Part shown: positions 9,773-53,210 of the stretch, in pieces
Layout of the letters: every line of letters starts with the position of its first letter
How positions within the stretch are numbered: position 1 is the first letter of the stretch
Origin: Effusibacillus dendaii
GTDB lineage: Bacteria; Bacillota; Bacilli; Tumebacillales; Effusibacillaceae
NCBI RefSeq assembly: GCF_015097055.1
Contig: NZ_AP023366.1
Span: forward strand, 1,612,001 to 1,676,000
Reading direction: 5' to 3'
DNA: 64,000 bases
Program-made: the position numbers and the translations under genes
Notes under the pieces: model-generated
What the model was told of the DNA's origin: nothing
What the model saw: only the letters and a program-made list of their open reading frames with translations
Databases searched by the model: none

Positions 9773-9990
9773 CTTTTGGCTATGTATCCCCCGCCCATGC
9801 CGTCGATCCGGATTGTTTTCTGAACCCGCCAAAGCAGGTGGGCGACCCGTTATTGCTTGCTGACGTCCCATTCGTCCAAAAAAGGAGGTGGGCATGCCAT
9901 CCGCAATAAGTTCTGTCTCCCCGAAAACATGTATAGGTTCAAAACAAGGTACCGCTCTGACGCACACGGCAGGTTAAAACGTTCTTTGTG
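9773..9990 (-). ncRNA. ssrS: 6S RNA
   Basis: 6S RNA binds the housekeeping RNA polymerase holoenzyme and mimics an open promoter. The 5' segment CCTGCCGTGTGCGTC can pair with the 3' segment GACGGCATGGGCGGG to close the molecule. Internal stretches such as TTGTTTTGAACC, ATGCCCACCTCC and GCCCACCTGC match what I recall of Firmicute 6S RNAs. A sigma-A promoter lies just upstream and an intrinsic terminator downstream. No convincing protein is encoded. Ends are set from promoter and terminator. A covariance-model search would settle the class. Confidence 0.72.
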
Positions 9991-14876: not shown

Positions 14877-15158
14877 TCAATCATTTGACGGGGCTGGCTT
14901 TTTGACAACCCGGACAATTCGCCGCGGTGGCTTTGCGGCGGCGGCATCGGCTTGCTCGCTGATCATTCCTTTTTCCAGCAGCAGGGATTGAATCCGCTTA
15001 ATATCGATCGGCGCAATCCGCCATGCCCTTTCAGCGAACGGAAATGTTTCGGCCGTCAAGTTCCCCTGCCGATCCAATTCCTCCAGCGCCAGACGAACTC
15101 GTTCCACCGGAATTTTCAGCATAGCAGCCACATCATCCAAATTAAACCGAATCGTCAT
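14877..15158 (-). CDS. Small winged-helix-like hypothetical protein
   Basis: A 93-residue protein beginning MTIRFNLDDVAAMLKIPVER. Residues 5-40 (DDVAAMLKIPVERVRLALEELDRQGNL) have the pattern of a DNA-binding helix-turn-helix, and the C-terminus is basic and Ala/Pro rich. GGGGGTGAGCGT precedes the ATG at 15158, and an ATG seven codons earlier overlaps that site. I cannot name a family. It follows proC on the same strand but is separated by the dispersed repeat. Confidence 0.6.
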   Translation of the reverse strand: MTIRFNLDDVAAMLKIPVERVRLALEELDRQGNLTAETFPFAERAWRIAPIDIKRIQSLLLEKGMISEQADAAAAKPPRRIVRVVKKPAPSND

Positions 15159-15192
15159 ACGCTCACCCCCCAAAAACAACCTGCTTTATTTT

Positions 15193-15285
15193 TAAAGAAA
15201 ACTTGGCTTCGCCAAGCCTAAGCGCAGGCGAACCTTAGTTGCCCTTATGTCGATAGGATAAAATTTATAACTTCCTGTCGACTAA
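15193..15285. repeat. Dispersed two-hairpin repeat, copy 1
   Basis: This about 90-bp element is shared with 45893-45996. It starts TAAAGAAAACTTGGCTTCGC, has a CTTGGCTTCGCCAAG hairpin, a middle block GCGCAGGCGA followed by CCTTAGTTGCCCTTATGTCG, and ends with an imperfect inverted repeat (GTCGATAGGA / TTCCTGTCGAC) around an AT-rich loop. The right arm lies inside the 3' end of proC and supplies its last codons and stop. It resembles a REP/MITE-like or small structured element of unknown class. Confidence 0.8.
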
Positions 15286-16140
15286 AAGAGAAGCCTGCTG
15301 CTCTCCCATCTCCTTGCTCCGCTCGGCTGCCCGACTGATCGTCCGTTCGATCAATTCTTTAAAATCAGCCTCTTCCAATGCGCGAATTCCCGCCATCGTG
15401 GTTCCGTTTGGCGATGTTACCTGACGGCGCAGTTCACGCGCGTCAAGTCCGGTTTCCTGCAGCATTTTGGCAGCGCCTGTCATCGTCTGCAGGACAAGCG
15501 TGCGGGCAGTTTCAGGCGACAATCCCATCGATTCGGCCGCCTGCTGCATCGCTTCCACCATATAGTAAAAATAGGCCGGGCCGCTGCCAGATACCCCTGT
15601 CACCACATCCATCTTCGATTCTTCTACCACAGACACGGTGCCCAACAGGGAGAGAATTTCTTGCGACAGCCGTTTTGCTTCTTCCGTGCAATATTGGCCA
15701 AATGCAACGGCAGTGGCAGATTGCAGGACGGCACAGGCGGTGTTTGGCATTGCCCGAACCACCTGTGGCCTTCCTCCCAGCACCGATTCCATCAAGGGTA
15801 TCGAAATGCCTGCCGCAACTGACAGGATAACCGGATTGCCGATTTTGCCAACCAATGTTTCCAATGTGTTCGCCACATCATACGGTTTGCAGGCCACCAA
15901 AATCACGTCGGCTGCCGCCAGTTCCCGCACCTTTGCATGGGTATCGGCACCTTCCACCGTACGGACACCATACAGTTTATTTAATTGCTGCAGCCGATCC
16001 GAATGGCTGCGATTTGTCACGCAGATTTGCGAAGGATCAACCGCATTTGCATGAATCAAACCACGGATGATCGCTTCCGCCATGGATCCGGCTCCTACCG
16101 ATAAAATCCGTTTGCCGTGCAAAATCGAATTCCCTTCCAT
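15265..16140 (-). CDS. proC: Pyrroline-5-carboxylate reductase
   Basis: ProC carries out the last proline step, reduction of pyrroline-5-carboxylate with NAD(P)H. The 291-residue protein has the Rossmann motif SVGAGSMAEAIIRGL near the N-terminus and the ProC signature region VTGVSGSGPAYFYYMVEAM (about residues 170-190), then LVLQTMTGAAKML and TSPNGTTMAGIRALE. ATG at 16140 has AGGGGGCG at a good distance; the ATG two codons earlier is too close. The last five codons (VDRKL) come from the dispersed repeat. It lies 34 bp behind proA in the proB-proA-proC operon. Confidence 0.94.
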   Translation of the reverse strand: MEGNSILHGKRILSVGAGSMAEAIIRGLIHANAVDPSQICVTNRSHSDRLQQLNKLYGVRTVEGADTHAKVRELAAADVILVACKPYDVANTLETLVGKIGNPVILSVAAGISIPLMESVLGGRPQVVRAMPNTACAVLQSATAVAFGQYCTEEAKRLSQEILSLLGTVSVVEESKMDVVTGVSGSGPAYFYYMVEAMQQAAESMGLSPETARTLVLQTMTGAAKMLQETGLDARELRRQVTSPNGTTMAGIRALEEADFKELIERTISRAAERSKEMGEQQASLLVDRKL

Positions 16141-16174
16141 ACACATCGCCCCCTGCCCCGTTAATTCAAATCGG

Positions 16175-18601: not shown

Positions 18602-18888
18602 AAACTCTAAAGAAAAACAAAAAGCCCTTCGCCCCAGAAGGACGAAAGGCATCTTTCGCGGTACCACCTTCATTGATACGCCGCCGTTTCCACACGTAAA
18701 ACGCTTCTGCAACGCGACATACCCACTCAATCCGAATAACGGTCGGCAGCCGTCCTGCTTTTCACAGGAATGTTCAGGAGCCGGTTTCGGTCTGATTTCC
18801 GGCGGAATCTTGCAGCCGATGGATTCCGCTCTCTGCCCGTTCCTACAGACGTACTCTCTCCATCATCACAACGTATAGCTTATTGTTC
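18602..18888 (-). promoter_or_regulatory. Proline-specific T-box leader of proBAC
   Basis: On the minus strand the leader has an AGAGA motif before a GCGGAATC/GATTCCGC stem, a specifier region CCTGAAC with codon CCT (18776-18778), and the T-box core AAGGTGGTACCGCG (18657-18670). A terminator follows (GCCTTTCGTCC / GGGGCGAAGGGC, then TTTTT, about 18621-18651). Uncharged tRNA-Pro should stabilise the antiterminator and turn on proline synthesis. The CCT specifier agrees with the downstream genes. Confidence 0.92.
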
Positions 18889-45892: not shown

Positions 45893-45996
45893 TAAAGAAA
45901 ACTTGGTTTCGCCAAGCCACTGGCGCAGGCGAGCCTTAGTTGCCCTTATGTCGATATGTCGATAGGAAAAAATTTATAAATTCCTATCGACCAAAC
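45893..45996. repeat. Dispersed two-hairpin repeat, copy 2
   Basis: Second copy of the element at 15193-15285: TAAAGAAAACTTGGTTTCGC, then CCAAGCC, GGCGCAGGCGAG, CCTTAGTTGCCCTTATGTCG, and a near-perfect GTCGATAGGAA / TTCCTATCGAC inverted repeat. It contains a short extra TATGTCGA duplication. Here it lies in a true intergenic gap between divergent genes. Confidence 0.8.
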
Positions 45997-53047: not shown

Positions 53048-53190
53048 TTGACAATTTAAGAAAACTTCGGTATTCTAACTTTTGTAAAGAAGAAGCGCTC
53101 GCTTCTCACCTTCCTGCCAACGGCAGTCAGGTCACTGTGGCAATACGTTATGTCGTATTTCATGCGGGCGCATCGCGTCCGCTTTTTACT
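53048..53190 (+). promoter_or_regulatory. infC operon promoter and L20-type attenuator leader
   Basis: Promoter -35 TTGACA (53048-53053), 17-bp spacer, -10 TATTCT (53071-53076). The leader holds CTTCTCACCTTCCTGCC and GGCAGTCAGG, paired segments like those of the L20 leader. It ends in a terminator GCGGGCGC/GCGTCCGC followed by TTTTT (about 53163-53187). Excess L20 is expected to favour termination before infC. Class is judged by position and layout. Confidence 0.7.
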
Positions 53191-53210
53191 TTATTTGGGG
53201 GTGACTCACT

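Follow-up and report, generated by a model that had tools for sequence, protein, structure and literature searches.

Two copies of a structured repeat in Effusibacillus dendaii point to a probably mobile family of small elements in Bacillota

The DNA analysed here, called the window throughout, is a stretch of 64,000 nucleotides from Effusibacillus dendaii (NZ_AP023366.1, positions 1,612,001 to 1,676,000). It carries two copies of a short dispersed repeat, the first of which overlaps the end of a minus-strand gene that we take, from its protein sequence, to be proC-like and lies directly upstream of the next minus-strand gene. Three known RNAs also lie in the window: a T-box leader (18635-18875, minus strand), 6S RNA (9784-9978, minus strand) and an L20 leader (53081-53196, plus strand). 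The features of the two copies and their neighbours are as follows.

14877-15179, minus strand: gene whose start lies 13 nt past copy 1
15193-15286, plus strand: element copy 1, edge to edge (TAAAG ... GTCGAC-TAAA)
15193-15197, plus strand: copy 1 left edge motif TAAAG (boundary composition over 218 copies)
15200-15240, plus strand: copy 1 5' module with the long stem (AACT/AGTT, then GG..GCC/GGC..CC, then an inner stem; covariation and fold)
15202-15216, plus strand: copy 1 short stem CTTGGC/GCCAAG, which competes with the long stem (covariation and fold)
15205-15218, minus strand: copy 1 short stem as a terminator-like unit, then AAGTTTTCTT (terminator call)
15244-15248, plus strand: copy 1 internal CTTAT (the "guide"), complementary to the left edge (A)TAAAG
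15249-15282, plus strand: copy 1 3' hairpin, GTCGATAGGA ... TCCTGTCGAC (fold)
15283-15286, plus strand: copy 1 right edge motif TAAA (compare the GTRTAA edges elsewhere)
15265-16146, minus strand: presumed proC-like gene, its final codons and stop inside copy 1
45893-45996, plus strand: element copy 2
45900-45941, plus strand: copy 2 5' module with the same competing stems (fold)
45900-45918, minus strand: copy 2 terminator-like reading (terminator call)
45945-45949, plus strand: copy 2 internal CTTAT
45950-45957, plus strand: GTCGATAT, in copy 2 only, a partial duplication of the hairpin 5' arm ahead of the second hairpin
45958-45991, plus strand: copy 2 3' hairpin, GTCGATAGGAA ... TTCCTATCGAC (fold)
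45992-45995, plus strand: copy 2 right edge motif CAAA

An earlier note on this DNA had described a two-hairpin repeat in two copies that share more than 80 bp. Two similar stretches do lie at these sites, and the copies (94 and 104 nt) have 85 identical aligned positions. A search of the window for the 20-base block CCTTAGTTGCCCTTATGTCG that tolerated up to three mismatches gave exactly two hits (mean 0.00 in 100 shuffles), and the DNA folds of both strands of both copies beat dinucleotide shuffles (z -3.5 to -4.1). The long inverted repeat is present in both copies, as GTCGATAGGA/TCCTGTCGAC and GTCGATAGGAA/TTCCTATCGAC. The first hairpin was described correctly for copy 1 alone, which reads CTTGGCTTCGCCAAG; copy 2 differs by one base and reads CTTGGTTTCGCCAAG. 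Two parts of the description had to be revised: the repeat is not made of two independent hairpins, its first module holding a long and a short stem that compete with each other, and the supposedly single-stranded block consists of the 3' arm of the long stem together with an internal CTTAT able to pair with both ends.

The prediction that two copies in 64 kb imply many genome-wide was borne out by at least 48 places in the 3.45 Mb genome. A first query gave 51 same-sense blastn hits in 40 places and a second query raised the count to 48, where hits no more than 300 bp apart were merged into one place and fragments are included. Four copies stand in a head-to-tail array with a period of 94 bp (1287296-1287629). 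Arrays also occur in Pseudalkalibacillus decolorationis and in Desulfosporosinus metallidurans, the latter seen also in a search that covered 200 loci, and neighbours within an array have one ATAAA in common.

The element is modular. Its 5' module and 3' hairpin are adjacent in the window copies; elsewhere they are split by inserted modules, which may be a hairpin (for example L016, L018, L023 and L024) or a long multi-hairpin module (L033, L042 and L046). The 3' hairpin itself comes in two kinds, a GTCGATAGG type and an ACTGTCG type. A module has been gained or lost at one apparently shared site (L310 versus L304), with an extra module, between GTGC repeats, in G144 that G209 lacks. Several other sequences accompany individual copies. 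A different short repeat, AAGGCTTCTACCGAAGCATATTCAAG-like, adjoins or is merged with element ends in L025, L038 and L043; L013 and L043 have a common stretch nearby, AATAGAGGAAGCCTTTTTCGACAGCCGAAAG followed by TATAAAAATGGTGA-like sequence; and in one Ammoniphilus copy (L175) the 5' module loop has taken up a long inverted repeat. In Bacillus sp. Marseille-Q3570 (L128, L142, L155, L166, L167 and L177) the element lies within a longer dispersed repeat, with upstream DNA in common.

The earlier note was prepared to give up its reading if only these two copies existed and their stems showed no compensatory changes. There are more than two copies, and compensatory changes are present. The long stem consists of P1 (ATAA-G/CTTAT), P2 (AACT/AGTT), P3 (GGCnnnnGCC/GGCnnnnGCC) and P4 (GCC/GGC), and it is paired in 89.4% of the cells of a 69-sequence alignment, which was picked by hand from 120 candidate 5' modules so as to avoid near-duplicates, chance matches and copies that were truncated or carried insertions. 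Two-sided changes occupy 61 cells of this alignment, against 21.2 ± 3.3 in shuffles (0 of 500 reached this value). A larger set of 121 matches (112 distinct rows) gave 94 against 31.4 ± 4.5 (again 0 of 500), in an alignment that is itself fitted to the covariance model. The short stem CTTGGC/GCCAAG cannot form together with P3, and 96.4% of its cells are paired; outside the P3 pairs it has one two-sided change (columns 13/25, U-A to C-G), seen in two rows that both come from G021. In P1, a G-C to C-G change is found in three rows, all from G050, where edge and guide have changed together to TAAAC/GTTAT; this joint change may be one event. Counts of G-T versus A-C pairs favour the plus strand in P3 and the minus strand in P4 and P2, with neither strand favoured in the 3' hairpin and P1 confounded by the flanking base.

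The left edge is sharply defined: across 218 copies TAAAG is conserved at 93-98% per position, an A precedes it in 54%, and there is no conservation farther upstream. In the genus designated g188 the left edge is often TATAG or ACTAG and the guide is CTTAGAT, and the two pair by eye. The right edge is usually YAAA in the E. dendaii genome, a weaker match to the TTTAT motif. In many of the 112 copies (out of 218) whose right hairpin was scored, the outer arms of this hairpin are TTATRC and GTRTAA, although some of these pairings are clearly wrong by eye. The internal CTTAT therefore complements the right edge GTRTAA in many copies as well as the left edge, which would let a single CTTATAC pair with one or the other. 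Terminal inverted repeats of the kind found in a DDE-type MITE were not seen by eye: the left end reads TAAAGAAAAC, and the right end, read inward, TTTRGTCGAT or TTTACAC.

The element is widespread in Bacillota and patchy in its distribution. It is present in 11 of 61 relatives (E. dendaii included), and three congeners have 0 (G001), 8 (G002) and 15 (G003) matches. A pattern scan of named genomes found at least 120 stretches, in Desulfosporosinus, Aneurinibacillus, Natribacillus, Pseudalkalibacillus, Salinibacillus, Pelosinus, Sporolactobacillus and other genera. A covariance model built on the 69 5' modules matched 29 of 299 Bacillota genomes (E ≤ 0.001) in 22 of 215 genera, and 270 of the 299 had no match; at most 17 places were scored per genome, so copy numbers per genome are lower limits. 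Plasmids gave a single match, a partial one on a Sporomusa plasmid. Neither the viral contigs, scanned with two exact patterns, nor the phage set, searched with two blastn queries, gave a match, an unexpected result if the element is mobile and active.

Evidence for movement comes from near-identical copies in unrelated surroundings. We took pairs of copies with an identity of 95% or more across 92 nt and asked whether both 80-nt flanks were below 65% identity. P. decolorationis had 37 such pairs out of 41, PH28_bin88 4 out of 4, Natribacillus 7 out of 8 and E. dendaii 1 out of 8; Marseille-Q3570, where the longer repeat contains the element, had none among 15. The proC site of the window provides a single and distant empty site, with flanking blocks only 71-78% identical. 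Two aligned blocks are separated by 122 bases in the query and by 22 in G001, where the gap holds no element. As to a target-site duplication of the DDE-type MITE kind, the observations are a TAAA-type motif at both element edges and this one site. The proC orthologues of G001, G002 and G003 all end without an element, and the sequence that follows differs in G002 and G003. A second candidate empty site (G308 versus G260) holds a possible remnant and was not used.

Copies lie near gene ends, and the element prefers the A-tract side of intrinsic terminators. Of 57 copies with a plus-strand gene on their left, 11 have that gene ending at offset -3, on the element's own TAA. After 55 copies without a recognisable right end were dropped, a terminator-like structure was found at 43 of 160 right edges, compared with 3 of 160 left edges and 175 of 1474 TAAA-type control motifs (p = 1e-6). 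In G181, three copies that are 97-99% alike each lie directly after a stem-loop and T-tract and end at ...CTTTAT. Insertion behind intrinsic terminators is a habit of group IIC introns, and the element has it too, at the 43 of 160 right edges and at all three sites in G181. No group II intron RNA was matched by Rfam in the window or in 14 further loci.

Once in place, copies receive no extra protection overall and decay at least as fast as their surroundings. Among orthologous copies in g188 (19 pairs in 5 sets), identity is 89.9% in the 5' module and 86.5% in the 3' hairpin. The adjacent 60 nt stand at 92.7% and 90.6%, and the 600 nt beyond at about 95% (95.1% at most), where the upstream value comes from 17 of the 19 pairs. 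One orthologous set (L264, L267, L268 and L275) keeps its 5' module at 96-100%, above its 3' surroundings. Since resident copies are unprotected, the covariation probably reflects selection on copies that move and not host regulation.

This bears on two readings in which the element serves the host. The first is a cis-acting attenuator or riboswitch-like leader on the minus strand, in which the short stem and TTTTCTTTA would form the terminator, the long stem the antiterminator, and a ligand or protein would decide between them for the downstream gene. Both competing stems are conserved, mutually exclusive and combined with a terminator, which is called on the minus strand in both window copies. 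Moreover, among 151 copies both neighbours are on the minus strand in 65 cases and both on the plus strand in 23 (p = 8.5e-6), and several copies end, by eye, near a ribosome-binding-site-like sequence and start codon. The terminator reading and the orientation bias make this a fair rival. However, there is no recurrent downstream gene family and there are no regulon-like neighbours, orthologous copies change no more slowly than the DNA around them, and at 57 of the 151 copies the left gene is on the other strand. The orientation bias would also be expected if the element targets terminator T-tracts on one strand. We therefore judge an attenuator unlikely.

The second is a chromosomal site useful to the host, such as a transcription terminator, mRNA stabiliser or protein-binding site, that was multiplied by other means. 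A terminator-like unit on the minus strand, placement at gene ends and presence across the phylum would all suit such a site, but the patchy distribution (congener G001 has no match, nor have 270 of the 299 Bacillota genomes), the frequent adjacency to a terminator that already exists and the decay of resident copies make it very improbable.

The earlier note proposed a search for a REP-type (Y1) transposase, which did not yield a partner: Y1_Tnp is missing from 6 of 11 element-bearing genomes. Among 20 genomes it is found in 5 of the 11 with the element and 4 of the 9 without it, and G030, with 99 first-look element candidates, has no Y1_Tnp match. Mobilisation on one strand by an IS200/IS605- or RAYT-type Y1 HUH transposase, as for PATE- or REP-like palindromic elements, would fit the hairpins near both ends, the lack of visible terminal inverted repeats, the target-like edge motif and the internal complement of both edges. 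The E. dendaii genome, which holds IS200/IS605-type genes and remnants and has 7 Y1_Tnp matches, would offer a source, and gene loss after spread could account for hosts free of Y1. Against this stand the six element-bearing genomes without the gene, the four element-free genomes with it, and the failure to see any copy whose ends enclose a Y1 gene. This leaves a Y1 enzyme as a quite unlikely agent.

IS200/IS605-type genes or remnants lie at G000:C1 443969-444320 (with two in-frame stops) and 1567739-1568041. The Y1 genes near the L074 and L090 copies proved to be of this IS200/IS605 type, whole or as remnants, and are not enclosed by element ends; in L074 an additional degenerate copy adjoins the Y1 gene, and for the Y1 gene in L073 the open reading frame list has no adjoining copy. 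A search for neighbouring transposases, integrases or reverse transcriptases (clustering of open reading frames of at least 70 aa that lay no more than 1.5 kb from any of 97 copies, these copies coming from 80 of 120 named loci) found no recurrent mobility protein. The recurrent neighbour groups comprise one of five loci, whose example looks by eye like an ABC transporter, and two that lie within the longer Marseille-Q3570 repeat.

The long internal modules of some copies have a distinct character. They are arrays of hairpins with the hexaloop CANGGAYG, which we take to be a CsrA/RsmE-type motif, and occur in L033, L034, L042, L046, L091, L092 and L094 and, in Desulfosporosinus, in L138, L146, L208 and L217. 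Element regions contain 28 such hairpins in 64,005 nt, compared with 11 in 1,031,798 nt elsewhere; 26 of the 28 are on the element plus strand and 2 on the opposite one, and of 14 genomes checked, 13 have CsrA. Bacillaceae-1 RNA (RF01690) is itself multi-copy, with 24 matches in the E. dendaii genome, for example at 829741-829975 (L282) and in a run of four close together, and 15 each in G001 and G002. One of its matches lies within element copy L034, on the opposite strand.

We consider it likely that the family consists of non-autonomous mobile elements of Bacillota, about 90-110 bp long, whose movement requires folding of a single strand. This folded strand would be acted on by an enzyme provided in trans, the internal CTTAT would align the two edges, and exchange would take place at targets resembling TTTA(T), for instance stop codons and the T-tracts of terminators. 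Read on the minus strand, the short stem and TTTTCTTTA look like an intrinsic terminator, which may shield the element or limit the damage it does and is probably not a host regulatory switch. A bolder version, which we put forward as tentative and rather doubtful, is that the internal guide CTTATAC pairs with both edges and with a TTTAT-like target, so that the folded strand and not a linked transposase sets the site, and that some lineages carry CsrA-type hairpin arrays as mobile CsrA decoys.

The small structured repeats of Bacillota that we found in print have been described species by species. With a covarying family that includes both Bacillaceae and Desulfosporosinus, it seems that many of these repeats could share a single old mechanism, and its covariance model, edge motifs and guide offer a handle for seeking the enzyme, as for that of bcr1. 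Terminator-like calls and C-terminal codons near copies, as at proC here, may derive from the element.

The earlier note held that the repeat fits no named element, and a search of Rfam 15 agrees, with no gathering-score match on either window copy. In the 14 further loci, the sole gathering-score match on a copy is Bacillaceae-1, on the internal insert of L042. That RNA thus matches the long internal module of some copies, on the opposite strand, and does not match the core element or the window copies; its reverse complement has been proposed as a CsrA-binding RNA (PMC4333381). A literature search for six element strings, mostly of open-access scope and hence unable to establish absence in print, found related repeats and none of the strings.

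REP and REPIN sequences are dispersed palindromes that are thought to move as single strands. The element differs from them in being about 95 bp long with two domains, in its conserved left end TAAAG and in the absence of a Y1 gene from 6 of 11 hosts; the REP palindrome, as described in PMC3733652, is 20-40 bp with a GTAG or CGTC tag at one end. PMC3049150 describes two repeats of Streptococcus pneumoniae: BOX, whose fixed ends may or may not enclose further modules and which has terminal inverted repeats and duplicates its target, and SPRITE, which is terminator-like and near gene ends; both are given there as nearly confined to a few streptococci. The element is modular like BOX, and terminator-like and near gene ends like SPRITE, but lacks terminal inverted repeats and does not share that host range.

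The closest published description is that of the TTTAT-flanked bcr1. The B. cereus group repeats bcr1-bcr3 (BCR group A) are small, intergenic, MITE-like and partly transcribed, with tens of copies (PMC3446304); they carry a TTTAT motif and are described as having a recombination-like mobility (PMC6542083, PMC3446304). Of these, bcr1 is 147-167 bp long (PMC2267715) and is reported only from the B. cereus group (PMC6542083). The element is shorter, at about 90-110 bp, and is found in many genera of Bacillota (among them Desulfosporosinus, Aneurinibacillus, Natribacillus and Effusibacillus itself), so the B. cereus-group restriction does not apply to it. It resembles the bcr repeats in size class, in copy number, in a probable mobility of recombination-like kind and in the TTTAT motif at its ends, where its left edge (A)TAAA is TTTA(T) on the other strand. 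Compared by description, the element is thus most likely a phylum-wide, structured, non-autonomous repeat that works as bcr1 is described to work.
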